Source: a virus
Reading direction: 5' to 3' (one strand)
DNA: 64,000 nt
IMG/VR virus record: IMGVR_UViG_3300035670_000083
Span: 36,285 to 100,284 of that record
Shown here piece after piece: positions 9,798 to 31,420 of this stretch. Position numbers and translations under genes: made by a program. Positions within the stretch are counted from its first letter, which is position 1; each line of letters opens with the position of its first letter. Under the pieces are notes generated by a model, which was given only the letters and a program-made list of their open reading frames with translations, had not been told where the DNA came from and searched no databases.

Positions 9798-10103
9798 ATG
9801 AAAAGATTAAAATACATTAAAAGATTCAATGAATCAAATGAAATGGATATTGAAATTGAATTAATTGGTCCTGATATAGATGATATTTTAGATGCAATTA
9901 ACTTCATAAACAATAACTATGATGTGAGTGTAAATCCAACAGATTTTCAAGAAGGTTCTGATATGCCTTATGCTCATAAAAGAAATCAAAATTATTCAAT
10001 TTTTGTTAAGTTAAATCCTAGTGGTGATGAAAAAAGTCATATCAGATTTATTAATGATTTGTTGGATGAAAACGGATTCTCTTGTAGGTTGTATATGATT
10101 TAA
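9798..10103 (+). CDS. tagged cassette protein, unknown function
   Basis: A 101-residue protein from the ATG at 9798, which follows AAAAGGAAAAAGAAT, a plausible ribosome site; an in-frame TTG at 9768 is less likely because the tag starts here. The tag is MKRLKYIKRFNESNE. The body is acidic (MDIEIELIGPDIDDILDAI) and reads like a small alpha/beta domain with 'VSVNPTDFQEG' and a basic patch. No family is recognised. Its 5' box GTTATGTGT is complementary to the ACACATAAC that opens the element after it (E9), as expected for one cassette unit. Confidence 0.7.
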   Translation: MKRLKYIKRFNESNEMDIEIELIGPDIDDILDAINFINNNYDVSVNPTDFQEGSDMPYAHKRNQNYSIFVKLNPSGDEKSHIRFINDLLDENGFSCRLYMI

Positions 10104-10130
10104 TGATATTATTTATTTTCTTATTACACA

Positions 10131-10172
10131 TAACGATACTCAGATATATTTAGGTTTTCATTTTTAATATAT
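10131..10172 (+). repeat. array element E9 (5' arm plus promoter)
   Basis: ACACATAACG, then the ATACTCAGATATATTTAGG stretch and TTTTCATTTTTAATATATA, nearly identical to E6, again followed directly by a tagged ORF. No 3' arm is visible. Confidence 0.6.
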
Positions 10173-10193
10173 AAACAAAAATAATTTAACAAC

Positions 10194-10424
10194 ATGAAAA
10201 GTTCAAATAATGTAAAAAGTTTCAAAGAGTTCAATGAAAACTTGAATATATCTGATGTTAGTGATAGTTTTTTGTCACCCGAAGAATTTTTAATTGATTG
10301 GGAAGGTAAAGATGATTCAACACACCCCAATCAAGATATTAGAGACGAATGGACTAAAAGAATTAATCAATTAAAAATTTATTCAAAAATGGTTCTTGAT
10401 AACACTTTAAAAAATTATCACTAA
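10194..10424 (+). CDS. tagged cassette protein with shared NLNISDVS block
   Basis: A 76-residue protein. Its opening, NVKSFKEFNENLNISDVSD, is shared with the 8723 ORF; after it comes a distinct acidic body (FLSPEEFLIDWEGKDDSTHPNQDIRDEWTKR). It is the last cassette ORF before the recombinase gene, and the intervening 37 nt contain a TATAAATA box. No function is known. Confidence 0.7.
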   Translation: MKSSNNVKSFKEFNENLNISDVSDSFLSPEEFLIDWEGKDDSTHPNQDIRDEWTKRINQLKIYSKMVLDNTLKNYH

Positions 10425-10446
10425 CTATATTATATATGTAATGACC

Positions 10447-10454
10447 TATAAATA
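10447..10454 (+). promoter_or_regulatory. T4-late-type promoter box for recombinase
   Basis: TATAAATA, identical to the T4 late promoter core, lies 7 nt before the recombinase ATG at 10462. A gp55-like sigma is encoded at 52159. Confidence 0.4.
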
Positions 10455-10461
10455 ATTGATT

Positions 10462-11265
10462 ATGAATGAAAAGGGTAAGTCAACTTTAAAGATTTGTGAA
10501 CAAAAACTTAATTATCTAAATTATTCTAAAAGAACGATTGATAATTATTTATCACATATTAATAGATTTTTAAAATCACAAAATAAATCATGTTTGCATT
10601 TATCATCTAATGATTTTCAGTCATATTTAGATAATTACAAATTTACTTCTATATCGCAACAAAACCAAGTTATTAATTCTATTCGATTTCTTTATAAAGA
10701 AGTTCTCGGTAAAAAGTATGATAAAGTCTCTTTCAAAAGACCTAAATCTGAAAAGAAACTTCCACAGGTTATAGATGGTGATTATATAAAATCACAATTA
10801 TCTAAAATTGATAATCTTAAACATAAGGCAATCCTCACACTAACATACTCGGTTGGATTAAGGGTTTCTGAAATAACCAATCTTAAAATTGAAGACATTG
10901 ATTCAAAAAGAATGATCATTCATATAAAAAATGCAAAAGGAAAGAAAGATAGGATTGTTCCACTTTCTGAAAATGTTTTAAATTTGCTTAGATATTATTG
11001 GAAACAATATAAACCAAAAGAATACCTTTTCAATGGATTATCCGGTAGATATTCAATTCAATCCTGTCAGAAAATATACAAAAAATATATTGATGAAAAA
11101 TCATCATTTCATACATTAAGACATTCTTCATTTACTAATTTACTTGAGTCAGGAACAGATTTGCGGATAATACAGAAAATAGCAGGTCATTCAAGCTCAA
11201 AAACAACCGAAATATATACTCACGTTTCAAATCAAATTTTAAGGAAAGTTAAATTACCCATCTAA
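10462..11265 (+). CDS. tyrosine recombinase (XerC/D-like), array-associated
   Basis: A 267-residue integrase. The N-terminal SAM-like core-binding domain spans about 1-95 (LNYSKRTIDNYLSHINRFL) and the catalytic domain about 100-267. All catalytic residues are present: R134 (GLRVSEI), K159 (NAKGKKDR), H217-x-x-R220 (FHTLRHSSF), H243 (AGHSSSKTT) and Y252 (IYTHV). It is shorter than integron IntI and lacks room for the IntI-specific extra helix, so by family it is XerC/D-like. I chose the ATG at 10462 over an in-frame TTG at 10456. It lies at the 3' end of the palindrome-separated cassettes in the same orientation, and its stop overlaps the convergent terminase gene by 12 nt. It is the obvious candidate to recombine the array; that is inference. 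Confidence 0.85.
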   Translation: MNEKGKSTLKICEQKLNYLNYSKRTIDNYLSHINRFLKSQNKSCLHLSSNDFQSYLDNYKFTSISQQNQVINSIRFLYKEVLGKKYDKVSFKRPKSEKKLPQVIDGDYIKSQLSKIDNLKHKAILTLTYSVGLRVSEITNLKIEDIDSKRMIIHIKNAKGKKDRIVPLSENVLNLLRYYWKQYKPKEYLFNGLSGRYSIQSCQKIYKKYIDEKSSFHTLRHSSFTNLLESGTDLRIIQKIAGHSSSKTTEIYTHVSNQILRKVKLPI

Positions 11266-13464
11266 TCCCCAAGATTTTCTAGCTTCTACCATCCTTCTAT
11301 TATAAGAGATTTTATTTCTTCTTATATCCAGTAATTGTTTATAATCAACTCCTTCTTCATATGATATTTTATTTAAAATATCATCAACTTTATTTCTTAT
11401 CTGTATATCTTCTAAATTATCAAAATAATCATCTACCATCCCTCTGAAATCATTCTTACCAAAAATAGATGTTAGGTTAACCAAAGTCATAACCGTATCA
11501 TCATTTTTATTACCATCAGCTTTATAAGTAATATTTCCAGTTCTTGTTGTATGTTTTATAAATGTTGTCATTTCATCTATATTTTCGTTATTATAAATAA
11601 TAATTGATCTATCTTGCATTTTTTCTTGGTAATCTTTCACCATTAGGTTTTTATTCTCACCAACTTTTAATCCTATTTTTTCATCTAACGCATCTACTCT
11701 GTGTTTAAATCTAAAGAATATAGATGATCCATAGTTGTTATTTCCTTCAAATACATTCGGTAAGTGAGCAAGTAACTCATATCCGTATGTATTGACTTCT
11801 AATACAGCTTTTAAATTATCTGTATCAAAATGATCAAAAGCTAAAACATAAAGTAATTCTGATAATTCATTGACGGATATAAGATTGCTTCTATACATTC
11901 CTATTTGTTCAAGTTGAATAAAGTCAAGTATGTTTCTATAATTCTTATTTTGTCTTTCTATTAGATCTATCGGCTTTGATTTTAATTTGAAAATATTTAT
12001 CACCGTATAGTCCTGTCCTAATCCTTCAGATACATCTATACTTAATAGTATCCGATAATTTTTTCTTATTTGTGGATTATAAATTTCTTTATTCGGATGC
12101 CATTTTAGATCTTTGTAAGAGAATTTAAGTTTTTCTTCTATTTCAGGAATTTCCTGCCATTCAAATAATGTTTTTCTATCAGTTAATTCTTTTATTAATC
12201 CATCATCTAATAATGATCTAGATGAGTTAATAAACTTCAAGTCAAATTCTTGGTTAAAAGCTTCTTCACCACCAATATCTTTGATTGTTTGTTTTTTCCA
12301 AGTTGTTATTTCAGCAATTTCTGGTAATTTAATATCATTTATTGTTTCTTTAATGATATCTTCTTCCTGACAATCATCAGAATTAAAAACATGAACAACC
12401 CACTTATTTAACTCGTCATCAAATCTCAGCTCTGATTTATTTTTTGGAAAAGATTCTTTAATCCTACTTAAAACATCTTCTGGTTTGACATTGTAGTGAT
12501 CTAATTTCTTTTGATTCAATCTTATGTATGTCACGAATCTTTTCGGAACTTGCCACCAATAAACTCTTTTTGCCACATAAGATGATTTTTCGCCTTCAGG
12601 CTTTTCAGCTTCTATTAAAAGTTTGTGAAATAAATTAAATCCGTTTGGAGTAGAGGTTATTATAATTTTAGAATTATCGATGTTGGCAATAGTAGGAAAC
12701 ACCGATTTGTAGAATTTATCTGCAATATTATCTGGTAGATAAGCAAACTCATCTAAATATAAAAAGTCAGCAGATTGACCGATAGAAGCGGTTTTTGTTG
12801 TTGCAAATCCTTTTATACGACTTTTATTTTCAAATGACATGAATTTCTCATTCCACTTTTTAATACCTTGTTGTAAGAAAAATGGAAGTCTTTGGTATAT
12901 TTCTTTCATTTTATCAAGGATCTCAGTTGCTGTATCCAACTTATTTGCTGTTACAAGAACGTTTTTGTTATTATTAAAAAGAACAAAATGTAATATGGTT
13001 ATTGCTGATGTGATAGTATTATGTGATAAAATACCATTTGTATAATATCTATGATTTGGATGATCAATAGATAAATCAAACATAGATAGTTTATGATTTG
13101 TTTTTTCTATCATTTTAACTTTTGATATTCCTTGATCAGTTTGTATGTAATCGCCTATTTTTAAATCTTTTATGTATATTTGATTAAAGTCCACATCAAA
13201 TAAAATGTGATTATCAGCACCGTTAAGAAATAGTCCATTTTCTAGTTTTAAATTATATTCACTATAAGGTTGTGTTATATGTATTTGCGGAGCTATTTCA
13301 TAACCAGTGTCTGTTTTCACTGATAAGTTGCAACTTATTGTATTCAATATCTTTTTGGATATATCATGTTCATTCAAATCTAAATTTCTGTATTCGAAAA
13401 CTTCTATATACTCAATTAATTTTTTTATTAAATATATTATGATAAGAGTAAAAAATCTAAACAT
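11254..13464 (-). CDS. gp17: terminase large subunit, C-terminal part, preceded by C-intein
   Basis: A 736-residue ORF. Residues 1-149 are the C-terminal half of a split intein: block B-like GADNHILF (about 82-89), KIGDYIQT, then block F/G SIDHPNHRYYTNGILSHN. The next residue, Thr150, would be the +1 nucleophile. From there the terminase resumes: TITSAITILHFVLF, Walker B FLYLDEFAYL, coupling motif IIITSTPNG, then the RNase H-like nuclease (LLSIDVSEGLGQDYTVI, and a late acidic cluster NKNDDTVMTL). T4 gp17 packages DNA into the head. The other half is at 14408-14914. The start is uncertain because the first residues (MFRFFTLIIIYL) overlap the endonuclease gene by 28 nt. Confidence 0.9.
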   Translation of the reverse strand: MFRFFTLIIIYLIKKLIEYIEVFEYRNLDLNEHDISKKILNTISCNLSVKTDTGYEIAPQIHITQPYSEYNLKLENGLFLNGADNHILFDVDFNQIYIKDLKIGDYIQTDQGISKVKMIEKTNHKLSMFDLSIDHPNHRYYTNGILSHNTITSAITILHFVLFNNNKNVLVTANKLDTATEILDKMKEIYQRLPFFLQQGIKKWNEKFMSFENKSRIKGFATTKTASIGQSADFLYLDEFAYLPDNIADKFYKSVFPTIANIDNSKIIITSTPNGFNLFHKLLIEAEKPEGEKSSYVAKRVYWWQVPKRFVTYIRLNQKKLDHYNVKPEDVLSRIKESFPKNKSELRFDDELNKWVVHVFNSDDCQEEDIIKETINDIKLPEIAEITTWKKQTIKDIGGEEAFNQEFDLKFINSSRSLLDDGLIKELTDRKTLFEWQEIPEIEEKLKFSYKDLKWHPNKEIYNPQIRKNYRILLSIDVSEGLGQDYTVINIFKLKSKPIDLIERQNKNYRNILDFIQLEQIGMYRSNLISVNELSELLYVLAFDHFDTDNLKAVLEVNTYGYELLAHLPNVFEGNNNYGSSIFFRFKHRVDALDEKIGLKVGENKNLMVKDYQEKMQDRSIIIYNNENIDEMTTFIKHTTRTGNITYKADGNKNDDTVMTLVNLTSIFGKNDFRGMVDDYFDNLEDIQIRNKVDDILNKISYEEGVDYKQLLDIRRNKISYNRRMVEARKSWGLDG

Positions 13465-26808: not shown

Positions 26809-26828
26809 TAAGTTATTGAAATAAATTA

Positions 26829-26864
26829 AATCCCTTCAAATTTGATTTGAAGGGATTTTTTTTT
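26829..26864 (+). terminator. intrinsic terminator after tail sheath
   Basis: AATCCCTTCAAA pairs with TTTGAAGGGATT across a short loop, followed by nine T residues. Confidence 0.85.
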
Positions 26865-27366: not shown

Positions 27367-29583
27367 TTAAAAACTTTCCATAAACACTGAATCAAACTTT
27401 TTAAATTCATAATGTTGATAAGCATCTTCCGCTAAGAATGGTGTCATTGGTGCTAATACTTTCATCATTTTTTCTGCACAATCTTTTAAAACATATTGAC
27501 AATCCATTCTTTCATTTGAATCAAGTTCATATTCATAAAGGAATGATTTCGTAACATCATCTAAGTAAAAAGATGATACTTCTGATACCCATTTCATAAC
27601 TTCTCTAAGAACAAATTTGAAATCATAATCATCATAATATTTCATACAATTTTCATACATTTCTTGATTCATATCTAAACACTTTCTATCCCTCTCAGAT
27701 AGTCTAGGTTCATATCCTTCTTCAAATCCGTACATATTACCTAAAAAGTATTTCATAGTATTCCTCAATTTAAAATAAGAAGAACTACAAGTATTTAGAA
27801 CAGCATCTCCTAATGTAACATCATTTCCATATGATGTTTGTGCTACCCATAATCTTAAAACATCTGTATTTGTTTTTTCTTGAACATCTTTTGGATCAAC
27901 AACATTACCTAATGATTTTGACATTTTTCTTCCCTGTTGATCCATTACAAATCCGTGTGTTAATACTTTCTTATATGGAGCTCTTCCTTTCATCGCTACT
28001 GATGTCAAAAGTGAAGATTGATACCAACCACGAAATTGATCAGATCCCTCTAAATACATATCTGAAACTTCTCCGTTCATTACGGATAACCAAGATGATC
28101 CACTATCAAACCATACATCAAGTGTATAATTACATTTTTCCAAACCTTTTCCTCTCCACTTTACTGGTAAAAGTTCATCATCAGTCAATTCAAACCAAAC
28201 ATCACATCCGGATTCTTCAAATAGTCCATATAAATGTTGATAAACCTCTTTATCTAATACCGGTTTTCCATCTTTAAGAAAAACAGCGAAAGGAAATCCC
28301 CATTGTCTTTGTCTTGATAAGCACCATTTATCTCGTCCTTTCAGCATATTTGTCAATCTGTTTTTCCATCTTTCTTCTGACATATCAACTTCTTCAAGTG
28401 ATTCGAGTGCCGATTCATTCAATTCTTTAAGGTTGAGAAAGAATTGTTCTGTCAATCTATAATATACTGGTTTCTTTGTTCTCCAGTCGTGTGGGTAAGA
28501 GTGTTTGTATTCTTCAGATCTTACCAACATTCCAAGTTGATTCATTTCTTCTACTACATCGTTTGAGTAATCTAAACAGAATTTTCCATTTACTTTTCCG
28601 GAATTATCTGTTAGATCTTCTCCTTCAAGATTGTTTCTTTTACAAACTTCAAAGTCTTCATCACCGTGTGCTGGACAAAGGTGAACTAATCCAGTTCCGC
28701 TATCTGATTTCACAAAATCATCTAATAATACAACTCCTTTTTCTCCTGTGAGTTTATTCACATAATTTAATCCTTCAAGTTCATTTCCTTTGAATTCTCT
28801 TGATGTTTCACCTTCAACAACATCTGAGAATTCACCAACTACATATGTTTGATTTTCTTTTACAACCTCTTTATATGTTAGATTAGGATTTACACATACA
28901 GCTTTATTTCCAAGTAAAGTCCAAGGTTGTGTTGTCCAAGCAACTAACTTTCTTCCATCTTCTAAATCAAATGTAAAGTAAGCAGATACATCAGTTCTAT
29001 CTTGATATTCTAATTCTGATTCAGCAAGAACGGTTCTTGTTGATGGTGAATAATGAACTGGTCTGTTATCAAGATAAACCAATCCTTTATTCATAAGAAA
29101 ATAAAGCAATTCTAATTGTTTTACTTCAAATTCTTTTTTATTGGTTTGATATTTATTTTCCCAGTCGGCAAAAACTCCTAAAGATTTGAATGTTTCCATT
29201 TGTTTTTCAACAAAACCATTTGCTAACTTGTGGCATTCTTTTCTCAAATCTGAATGAGATAGCTTTTCTTTGAATTTTTTCTGAACTGCTAACTCAGTTG
29301 GTAAGCCGTGACAATCCCAACCTGGTCGGAAATCCACTTTATACCCATTCATTAATTTCCATTTGACTACCATATCTTTGAGGACTTTATTTAAAACGTG
29401 TCCAACGTGTAATTCACCATTTGCATAAGGTGGTCCATCATGTAAAAGAAATCTTTTTTGATTTAATTTATTTCTTTCATTTAAAGTATTTTCCCATAAT
29501 TTTAACAATTCTGGTTCTTTTGTTTTGTGTTCAGATCTTTGTGTAAAGTCTGTTTTCGGCATGTTCAATTTTTTTGTTTCCAT
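27367..29583 (-). CDS. ileS: isoleucyl-tRNA synthetase
   Basis: A 738-residue class I synthetase. HDGPPYANGELHVGH (about 48-62) contains the HIGH motif as HVGH; GRKMSKSLGN (about 550) is the KMSKS loop; the CP1 editing domain is present (LVAWTTQPWTLLGNK, and GTGLVHLCPAHGDEDF with its conserved Asp). WDCHGLPTE and FRPGWD are typical of IleRS. Bacterial IleRS has about 930 residues, so the C-terminal anticodon-binding part is short and the zinc-binding tail is missing. I used the ATG at 29583; an in-frame start at 29619 would lie inside the terminator hairpin. It charges tRNA-Ile, whether host or phage. Its leader carries an apparent attenuator. Confidence 0.93.
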   Translation of the reverse strand: METKKLNMPKTDFTQRSEHKTKEPELLKLWENTLNERNKLNQKRFLLHDGPPYANGELHVGHVLNKVLKDMVVKWKLMNGYKVDFRPGWDCHGLPTELAVQKKFKEKLSHSDLRKECHKLANGFVEKQMETFKSLGVFADWENKYQTNKKEFEVKQLELLYFLMNKGLVYLDNRPVHYSPSTRTVLAESELEYQDRTDVSAYFTFDLEDGRKLVAWTTQPWTLLGNKAVCVNPNLTYKEVVKENQTYVVGEFSDVVEGETSREFKGNELEGLNYVNKLTGEKGVVLLDDFVKSDSGTGLVHLCPAHGDEDFEVCKRNNLEGEDLTDNSGKVNGKFCLDYSNDVVEEMNQLGMLVRSEEYKHSYPHDWRTKKPVYYRLTEQFFLNLKELNESALESLEEVDMSEERWKNRLTNMLKGRDKWCLSRQRQWGFPFAVFLKDGKPVLDKEVYQHLYGLFEESGCDVWFELTDDELLPVKWRGKGLEKCNYTLDVWFDSGSSWLSVMNGEVSDMYLEGSDQFRGWYQSSLLTSVAMKGRAPYKKVLTHGFVMDQQGRKMSKSLGNVVDPKDVQEKTNTDVLRLWVAQTSYGNDVTLGDAVLNTCSSSYFKLRNTMKYFLGNMYGFEEGYEPRLSERDRKCLDMNQEMYENCMKYYDDYDFKFVLREVMKWVSEVSSFYLDDVTKSFLYEYELDSNERMDCQYVLKDCAEKMMKVLAPMTPFLAEDAYQHYEFKKFDSVFMESF

Positions 29584-29608: not shown

Positions 29609-29640
29609 AAAAAACCCAAGGACTCTTTTGAATCCTTGGG
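29609..29640 (-). terminator. attenuator (terminator) in the ileS leader
   Basis: On the minus strand, CCCAAGGATTC pairs with GAGTCCTTGGG around an AAAA loop, followed by TTTTTTATTG: a strong intrinsic terminator, yet it lies upstream of ileS, between leader peptide and start codon. Its 5' side (29631-29639, CCAAGGATT) is also perfectly complementary to AATCCTTGG at 29680-29688 within the leader ORF, giving a 9-bp antiterminator that would prevent the terminator. Confidence 0.85.
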
Positions 29641-29664
29641 TTACTATTAGATAATATAATCACA

Positions 29665-29727
29665 TTATCTTTGGGGTATCCAAGGATTTAATCTGTGAAT
29701 TATAATTATGTTTCTTTTCATTTTCAT
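29665..29727 (-). CDS. Ile-rich leader peptide of ileS attenuator
   Basis: A 20-residue ORF, MKMKRNIIIIHRLNPWIPQR, with four consecutive Ile codons (ATA ATT ATA ATT) and a fifth Ile near the end. It is followed by a 7-bp hairpin (AGATAAT / ATTATCT, overlapping the stop) and the terminator at 29609-29640. Codons AAT CCT TGG of this ORF form the 5' strand of the antiterminator. A ribosome stalled at the Ile run for lack of Ile-tRNA would leave this strand free to pair; a ribosome reaching the stop would cover it, so the terminator forms. This is the logic of his/trp/ilv attenuation. Expression has not been shown; the arrangement is visible directly. Confidence 0.8.
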   Translation of the reverse strand: MKMKRNIIIIHRLNPWIPQR

Positions 29728-29731
29728 TTTA

Positions 29732-29739
29732 CAAATATA
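29732..29739 (-). promoter_or_regulatory. Bacteroidota-type -7 box for ileS leader
   Basis: The minus strand reads TATATTTG, four nt before the leader peptide ATG, so the transcript may be nearly leaderless. A TATATAAT stretch just upstream also resembles the phage late box; which is used is not clear. Confidence 0.5.
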
Positions 29740-29758
29740 TTAATTATATATGAATTTT

Positions 29759-31420
29759 TTACACCTTTGTTAAATTTTTTTCAAATTTTATTTTACCACA
29801 ATTCCAAACTTTATTTATTTGTAGTGATGATTCAGAAACACCTGTTATAGATTTTCTAAATCTTGATTTGTGTATCAATTCATTTTGAAAAAGGTATTTA
29901 TAATCTGGTTCAGTCTCATGAATTTTTTCAAATTCTAATTTATAGTATAAATCTCCTTCAGACCAGTCTTTATCTGCATAACTTATTATTCTTGTGGGTT
30001 TAAATTCCTTAATAAAAAAAGAAAGTAATTTTGAAGCTCCTCCAACAACAGAGTAATTTACCTTATTGCAAAACCTAGACAAATTCCATTCGTCATTACT
30101 CATTTTTTTTCTACCCTCGAAATGATCAAATAACATTATTGATACCAATTCATTTCTGTAGTATAATCCTAATTTAATATTTGATTTTACAAACCCTTGT
30201 ATATGATTTTTGTCTAAAAAGTCTCTTATAGATTTGATATCTTTAATCTCTTTTACTTCACATTTTCTTGCTGGTATTTTCTTACTCTTACCAATTATAT
30301 TACTTATCTGTGACTTTATTATTTCTTTCCTATTTGTCCAATCATTTTCCCATATATTTATTATCCTTATTCCTTTTTCCTTGAAATAATTTAGTTTGTT
30401 TATATGGTAATTTTTATCTTTAAATTTATCAGAATGCCAATATATTCCATTGAACTCAAACCCAATTTTAAATTCTGGTAAGTAGATATCTATTTCAAAT
30501 TTGTCTCTGAATGAACTTATTAATTCTCCATCATAGATTGATTCTATGAAATCAAAAATCTCTTTTTCCTTTATGGAAATAAGTTCGTTTATAGGAAAAC
30601 AAATTGTGCATAATGGAATATTGTTTTCTAATCTTGACTTGAAGTTATTATAAAGTATTTCAAATTCATGTTCTTTTTCACAATCACATTTAAAAATAGA
30701 AATACTATTTCCTTTATATTCTTTATAGTTTTCATGATTTGAGATATCATAATTATTTCTGAATGTGTTGGAATTAAAAACATTCATCCTATTTATATTA
30801 GATTTCTCAATATTTAAGGTGCTTTTAACTCCCCATTTTTCTAAATTTGTTGATTCTTTTTTATCTTTTATAGTTTGACTTTGTGAGAAATGTTCTAATC
30901 CCCATTTACTTAAATTGGATTCTTTTTGTTTTTGATAAAATTCTTCAGTTTTTGAGAAGTTTTCAGCTCCCCATTTTTCTAAATTTGTTTGCTTAAATTT
31001 GGATTTTATCTTTTCATTTTGTAATACGTGCTCAACTCCCCATTTTTTTAGATTTGTTTGTTTTCTTTTTTTAAGAATTTTTTCTAATTTTGATTTATCT
31101 ATTTTCCTACCTTTGTTAGGATTTATTTTTTTAGGTTCTAATTCTATTGTTTCTTTGAACTTTTCATTTCCGCACTTACGAGAGCAAGCATATTTATTCA
31201 ATTTACTTTTATAAACTATCCTATTATAATCAACAAATTTCCTTTCATGTTCTTTATTACAATAATCACATTTTACTAAAACGTTTATATTAATTGATTT
31301 AGGTAAATCTATTATCTTAACCTCTATTTCATCTAAAGAAATATCATATCCTAAAGACTCATAGTGTTTTAGTTTTTTGTTAGCAAACGTTTTTACTAAT
31401 ACTGTTTTTGATAATATCAT
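29759..31420 (-). CDS. putative homing endonuclease with TNLEKWG repeats
   Basis: A 553-residue protein. The N-terminus has MILSKTVLVKTFANKKLKHY and zinc-ribbon-like pairs (CDYCNKEHERKF, CSRKCG). At about 115-210 four repeats of the type TNLEKWGVEHVLQNEKIK suggest a modular DNA-binding region. A Vsr-like nuclease core follows: IGFEFNGIYWHSDKFKD and IRIINIWENDW. The C-terminal part contains ARKCEV and VVGGASKLLSFF. Truncated relatives lie at 58459-59345, and another starts at 63479. It sits between the baseplate genes and ileS, its stop directly abutting the ileS promoter, as an insertion in an intergenic gap. Full length, so probably active. Confidence 0.8.
   Translation of the reverse strand: MILSKTVLVKTFANKKLKHYESLGYDISLDEIEVKIIDLPKSININVLVKCDYCNKEHERKFVDYNRIVYKSKLNKYACSRKCGNEKFKETIELEPKKINPNKGRKIDKSKLEKILKKRKQTNLKKWGVEHVLQNEKIKSKFKQTNLEKWGAENFSKTEEFYQKQKESNLSKWGLEHFSQSQTIKDKKESTNLEKWGVKSTLNIEKSNINRMNVFNSNTFRNNYDISNHENYKEYKGNSISIFKCDCEKEHEFEILYNNFKSRLENNIPLCTICFPINELISIKEKEIFDFIESIYDGELISSFRDKFEIDIYLPEFKIGFEFNGIYWHSDKFKDKNYHINKLNYFKEKGIRIINIWENDWTNRKEIIKSQISNIIGKSKKIPARKCEVKEIKDIKSIRDFLDKNHIQGFVKSNIKLGLYYRNELVSIMLFDHFEGRKKMSNDEWNLSRFCNKVNYSVVGGASKLLSFFIKEFKPTRIISYADKDWSEGDLYYKLEFEKIHETEPDYKYLFQNELIHKSRFRKSITGVSESSLQINKVWNCGKIKFEKNLTKV

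Follow-up and report, generated by a model that had tools for sequence, protein, structure and literature searches.

Ribosome-mediated attenuators are known from the amino-acid operons trp, his and ilv and from E. coli pheST, and T-box riboswitches of Bacillota synthetase genes raise the synthetase when its tRNA is uncharged. The phage ileS region described here resembles the former in its leader regulatory codons, its alternative antiterminator and terminator and its predicted control by charged tRNA. It differs from them in that the gene belongs to a phage, the enzyme is free of the sensed amino acid, the attenuator belongs to a group that covers many amino acids and the phage promoter apparently sits just a few bases upstream of the leader ATG. 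With T-boxes it shares the predicted rise in synthetase at uncharged tRNA, but the sensor would be a translating ribosome, without direct tRNA binding. A model for the attenuation of amino-acid operons has been described (PMC1183508). Amino-acid biosynthetic enzymes also tend to hold little of their own product, which has been explained by recovery from starvation (PMC4209129); that bias is a statistical trend in biosynthetic enzymes and tRNA synthetases are unmentioned, whereas we find complete absence, in synthetases, linked to attenuators. Huge phages encode up to 15 synthetases per genome, with the proposed role of charging phage tRNAs (PMC7162821; PMC9723777). These studies cover the same genomes or relatives of them and describe neither the missing cognate residue nor the attenuators. 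The control mechanism is of a known kind, while its combination with complete cognate loss across many synthetases is apparently undescribed: in the open-access literature searched we found no earlier report of synthetases without their own amino acid, or of such enzymes combined with attenuators, and other work is not excluded.

The window analyzed is a 64,000-nucleotide stretch of a 100,284-base IMG/VR record, and all elements of the ileS region lie on its minus strand. Because tail sheath, portal, major head and clamp-loader genes are present, we assign the window to a phage. In an annotated phage collection the closest relative is LR745206.1, an uncultured megaphage of 635 kb; phages above 634 kb have Bacteroidetes as predicted hosts (PMC7162821). 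A search for tRNA genes across the window found none.

The first-pass annotation had described a 20-codon leader ORF with four consecutive Ile codons, a 9-bp perfect antiterminator match and an 11-bp terminator with T6 that shares the antiterminator strand, followed by the ileS start. All of these are present (Table 1), and the leader is conserved. Strand 2 (29688-29680) and strand 3 (29639-29631) are perfect 9-nt complements, and the 11-bp terminator core extends to 13 pairs if flanking pairs are counted. The leader folds with z = −5.9 relative to shuffles, and the duplex between the leader and the terminator arm beats 500 of 500 shuffled sequences (p 0.002). An Rfam scan of the window for known leaders and T-boxes gave no family at gathering score. 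The promoter-like element TATATTTG fits the Bacteroidota −7 promoter consensus, TAnnTTTG. Such a motif stands upstream of 9 of 22 leaders compared to 5% of random 70-nt windows, and a spacing of 4–5 nt between motif and leader ATG is also found in five other leaders.

Table 1 Features of the ileS region and coordinates of other loci mentioned in the text.
Feature	Record	Position	Strand	Sequence and remarks
Promoter-like element	window	29732..29739	(-)	TATATTTG; matches TAnnTTTG; ends 4 nt before leader ATG
Leader peptide ORF	window	29665..29727	(-)	MKMKRNIIIIHRLNPWIPQR; 20 codons; conserved in five related loci
Four consecutive Ile codons	window	29698..29709	(-)	ATA ATT ATA ATT; putative regulatory codons; also part of strand 1
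Strand 2	window	29680..29688	(-)	AATCCTTGG; antiterminator 5' strand; encodes Asn-Pro-Trp
CCAA	window	29671..29674	(-)	small hairpin with TTGG 29683-29680; pairs invariant in six sequences
Strand 1' (anti-antiterminator)	window	29650..29664	(-)	pairs with Ile-codon segment and hides strand 2; MFE fold and RNAalifold, with double compensatory changes
Strand 3	window	29631..29639	(-)	CCAAGGATT; common to antiterminator and terminator
Intrinsic terminator	window	29609..29642	(-)	AACCCAAGGATT-CAAAAG-AGTCCTTGGGTT with T run; stem 29642-29613, T6 29614-29609
ileS	window	27367..29583	(-)	ATG at 29583; 738-aa isoleucyl-tRNA synthetase, zero Ile
Homing-endonuclease gene	window	29759-31420	(-)	phrog_3339; directly upstream of ileS leader
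Hairpin after tail sheath gene	window	26828-26858		perfect 14 pairs with T run; likely terminator
Shortened ValRS	L061	8038-9366		442 aa; well below usual length
ThrRS	L107	7160-8200		read as 346 aa; well below usual length
HisRS-like	L108	10217-10852		211 aa, without His; well below usual length
HisRS-like and PheRS-like pair	G003	~415050-416961		behind one leader
HisRS-like and PheRS-like pair	L108	~10050-11961		behind one leader
SrmL locus	L164	1486-2604		0 or 1 Phe
SrmL locus	L163	1492-2604		0 or 1 Phe
SrmL locus	L097	13818-14897	(-)	0 or 1 Phe
tRNA array of G001	L051	17614-19500		unusual; one of two arrays
tRNA array of G001	L055	16104-18247		unusual; one of two arrays

Five further viral loci, whose IleRS identities run from 97% to 63%, share the run of four Ile codons, the CCTTGG strand that encodes Pro-Trp and the terminator, and they show compensatory changes. 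Their leader peptides are MNFNTIIIIRYSIPWSIPIG (LR745206.1), MKMKRNIIIIHRLNPWTTQR (L004), MLNRNIIIIRRSIPWYKPIG (L006), MRSTCIIIIHRLTPWIFQW (L012) and MNFNSIIIIRKSTPWYKPIG (L013). The IIII run is unchanged in all six ileS leaders, and the four Ile codons, short spacer and xPW (CCTTGG) are invariant down to an IleRS identity of 63–65%. RNAalifold on the six leaders gave 24 pairs, five of them with double compensatory changes, in a structure where the Ile-codon segment pairs with the post-stop segment to form a stem that encloses a small TTGG/CCAA hairpin, followed by the terminator. Over 21 leaders of several genes, antiterminator complementarity reached a combined p of 1.5e-10, where some leaders are close relatives; the related sequences behind the conservation evidence are not fully independent. 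A search of viral contigs for leader-like DNA patterns returned mostly unrelated coding sequence, with L006 as one true homologue.

This conservation bears on the possibility that the hairpin merely terminates the upstream gene and that the Ile-rich ORF arose by chance in A+T-rich sequence. The genome is 71% A+T, so that Ile codons are common there, and the upstream homing-endonuclease gene is followed by a stable terminator. We nevertheless consider such a coincidence very improbable, because diverged relatives whose upstream genes differ still have IIII-xxx-xPW, both strands of the complementary pair and the terminator, and because the runs agree with the downstream synthetase in many genes (see below). 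In L004, nearly the same leader follows a different upstream gene that has its own terminator; the endonuclease gene therefore appears to have been inserted beside a conserved promoter-leader-ileS unit. The invariant PW of the ileS leaders could instead point to translational or peptide-specific control, such as nascent-peptide stalling dependent on Pro-Trp, rather than to attenuation at Ile codons. However, the PW codons CCTTGG are themselves the antiterminator strand, so RNA pairing explains their invariance, and leaders of other synthetases without PW keep both the complementarity and the cognate codons. Translational or peptide-specific control is thus quite unlikely.

The alternative pairings of the attenuator were followed in modelled folds. 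When a ribosome is placed over the Ile codons, the partial transcripts of all six leaders fold into the antiterminator. With the ribosome at the stop codon no antiterminator forms (a weak structure of −1.3 kcal/mol was seen in L006 only) and the full transcript retains the terminator. In the ribosome-free partial transcript, strand 2 is hidden in four of the six leaders and exposed in the window and L004, which, unlike most relatives, favour the antiterminator in this state; in the window the protective stem hides strand 2 in the full-length fold only. Since strand 2 is not hidden without a ribosome, the basal state of these two leaders may depend on their being translated. The reading of the region as the layout of an amino-acid-operon attenuator is supported by the conserved leaders, the compensatory changes and these modelled folds, and the comparison with homologous leaders that the first-pass annotation had proposed as a check finds the Ile run and the complementary strands kept, with compensatory changes.

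On this basis, a ribosome supplied with charged Ile-tRNA would clear the Ile codons, reach the stop and cover strand 2, whereupon the terminator (3:4) would form and ileS would remain untranscribed. When charging falls, the ribosome is predicted to stall on the Ile codons, open the 1:1' stem and free strand 2; the 2:3 pairing would then form in the absence of the terminator and ileS would be transcribed. Both termination and induction by uncharged tRNA are inferred here without RNA data.

The first-pass annotation had missed a second property of the locus, namely that the IleRS of the window (P0001) contains no Ile in 738 residues, where about 60 would be expected. Ile makes up 7.9% on average over the window ORFs. 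The enzyme matches TIGR00392 with 704.9 bits (cut-off 621.4), the match stopping at position 802 of the 861-position profile, and it is shortened at the C-terminus. Among its class I motifs HVGH replaces HIGH while KMSKS is retained, as is the editing-domain motif. Ile is likewise absent from P0002 (735 aa), P0004 (740 aa), P0005 (738 aa), P0006 (742 aa) and a 236-aa IleRS fragment of L004. Of 19 more distant viral IleRS, 18 contain Ile (2.5–7.5%). The exception comes from L036; this enzyme is 841 aa long, only 36% identical and free of Ile, and its gene has its own leader (MKTLNTFVNSIIIIPKLPMS) and terminator. Its nearest plasmid relative, an 847-aa IleRS from a Variovorax plasmid (46.6% identical), also lacks Ile, and the plasmid ileS has a leader frame with Ile-Ile and a 7-nt antiterminator complement. 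In all, Ile is missing from five complete viral relatives of the window enzyme and one plasmid copy, compared to 22–52 Ile in 14 ordinary bacterial IleRS and 22–56 in complete ordinary IleRS of viruses and bacteria together. No Ile-free IleRS was present among the best 14 matches to the plasmid IleRS in 399 genomes of one bacterial order, and a scan of genome contigs for an HxGH stretch without Ile yielded nothing but two ordinary IleRS from bacteria. An AlphaFold model of P0001 built from four sequences had a mean pLDDT of 37 and was not used as evidence.

Codon reassignment was rejected as the cause of the missing Ile, as Ile accounts for 8–9% in the rest of the genes in these genomes. The shortened C-terminus and the HVGH in place of HIGH might be taken as signs of a non-functional enzyme that lost Ile through composition drift or relaxed constraint. 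We give this almost no credence: the remaining genes in the records with Ile-free IleRS hold 8–9% Ile, KMSKS and the editing-domain motif are kept, ordinary complete enzymes keep their Ile, and the loss invariably concerns the cognate residue. That the enzyme charges tRNA-Ile is inferred, without biochemical data.

Cognate loss was surveyed by checking all ORFs of at least 100 codons (n = 2,411) for a shortage of any of the amino acids. The ORFs came from six records: LR745206 (W01), LR756502 (W02), G003 (the record of L013), G002 (L012), G001 (L036) and G000, the window's own. The host and phage status of G001 are unsettled; of its two unusual tRNA arrays (Table 1) one holds at least ten tRNA-Leu and the other many tRNA-Ala together with Arg and Met. 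Nineteen of the 2,411 ORFs are completely devoid of some amino acid, other than Cys, whose expected count is 12.5 or more. Every one of these 19 is a tRNA synthetase that does without its own cognate amino acid, namely Ile (5), Val (3), Asp (3), Asn (3), Phe (2), Thr, Tyr and Arg. Two ProRS contain no Pro, and three HisRS-like proteins contain no His, which is weak evidence because His is rare. Near-complete loss is seen in LysRS (1 Lys in 400 residues), GlnRS (1 Gln in 539), two GlyRS-like proteins (1 Gly) and one AsnRS (1 Asn). GluRS has 6 Glu where 34 are expected, and depletion is partial in SerRS (12 Ser, 30 expected) and LeuRS (18–23 Leu, 33–35 expected); a 285-aa GluRS-like protein shows none. 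In 31 of 35 synthetases none of the twenty amino acids is more strongly depleted than the cognate one, and the depletion extends over ten or more specificities and both classes of synthetase. NCBIfam models served to check the identities, with best matches under the cut-off for Val-, Lys-, His-, Arg-, Gly- and LeuRS; several of these are shortened enzymes. The AsnRS of G001 falls in the aspartate--tRNA(Asn) model and was assigned to Asn because it has zero Asn and an NNDN leader.

Leaders with cognate runs are likewise not confined to ileS. A run-bearing leader with a terminator precedes 12 of 34 synthetase genes compared to 10 of 2,377 other ORFs in the six records, and an upstream terminator precedes 17 of 34 compared to 59 of 2,377. 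The ValRS leaders contain LVVVNVSV, NLVVVTDIV and NNVVVVN, those of AspRS carry Asp-Asp, and those of AsnRS carry NNRN, NNNN and NNDN; further runs are FNFFF (PheRS-like), PLP (ProRS), and NILLLPL and NLLLLAD (LeuRS). In the HisRS-like leader THFHFHF, His and Phe codons alternate, and a PheRS-like gene directly follows the HisRS-like gene, as if one attenuator sensed both His and Phe. Several of the cognate-free synthetases come without an individual leader, and several synthetases that sit within tRNA clusters or operons of G003 likewise have none to themselves. The first-pass annotation, which knew of no phage gene under such control, also missed that ileS is not alone: the layout precedes many cognate-free phage synthetases, and the ileS attenuator is one of a set.

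The missing residues could reflect adaptation to loss of the tRNA, for example through cleavage by a host defence, and not to loss of charging. Huge phages do carry tRNAs and tRNA repair genes (PMC7162821), and G001 codes for a phage-type RNA kinase/ligase-like protein. We regard this explanation as unlikely, because every synonymous codon is gone and not only that of one isoacceptor, because the pattern recurs over at least ten specificities in both synthetase classes, and because a synthetase could not remedy the loss of a tRNA. The loss of all synonymous codons points instead to the amino acid or its charging.

Plasmids carry related genes. The Phe-free phage PheRS-like proteins match NCBIfam NF051887 (PheS-related mystery ligase SrmL) with 423 and 434 bits (cut-off 300). 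The model itself gives no function, but the phage members have zero Phe and a leader with a Phe run, which suggest, from sequence, that the SrmL-type phage protein charges Phe; SrmL proteins may be stand-alone Phe ligases. Plasmid SrmL/PheRS-like proteins contain no Phe (Glutamicibacter) or one (Azotobacter), and SrmL loci with 0 or 1 Phe occur on plasmids and in megaphages (Table 1). On plasmids of Rhizobium and Devosia, Asn-Asn-Asn occurs in the leader frames of AsnRS-like genes (L166, upstream of 1468; L165, upstream of 1501). The Rhizobium enzyme has 4 Asn in 438 residues, and the Devosia gene looks frameshifted. A Paraclostridium copy has an apparent T-box sequence upstream and contains 37 Asn and 17 Asp. 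This contrast between a leader with a cognate-poor enzyme and a T-box with a cognate-rich one is suggestive and not a survey.

Taken together, we conclude with considerable confidence that the ileS region combines a ribosome-mediated transcription attenuator with an Ile-free enzyme, and that this two-part design recurs in related megaphages, where for many synthetases a cognate-codon leader with a terminator precedes an enzyme purged of its own amino acid. As the IleRS has no Ile, its mRNA would be translatable although Ile-tRNA is scarce, and the enzyme would avoid needing Ile-tRNA to make its own producer. A missing cognate residue makes most sense if the enzyme is made when its aminoacyl-tRNA is nearly absent. 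The most likely benefit, which we infer without protein data, is that charging is restored if the host's own synthetase can no longer keep up, is inhibited or has been inactivated. Against the overall reading stand the antiterminator preference of the free partial transcript in the window and L004, the little help that an extra synthetase would give if the amino acid itself were gone, the only partial depletion of LeuRS and SerRS, the undepleted GluRS-like protein and the cognate-free synthetases without leaders.

In broader terms, megaphages and some plasmids probably carry a regulon of "self-exempt" synthetases, each without its amino acid and many switched by an attenuator that reads the same amino acid. 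With such a regulon, the charging of any one tRNA family could be restored after it had almost ceased, for example when a host synthetase is inactivated by a defence, a toxin or an antibiotic. The missing residue and the leader codons together provide a simple substrate predictor for unassigned ligases such as SrmL. Our findings also indicate that both synthetase classes can apparently lose their own amino acid fully, and that a catalytic motif need not be spared (HIGH to HVGH). This is relevant to proteins built from a reduced alphabet and to how synthetases could have existed before the genetic code was complete. Phage synthetases would thereby gain a testable purpose beyond the charging of phage tRNAs, namely emergency replacement at charging collapse.
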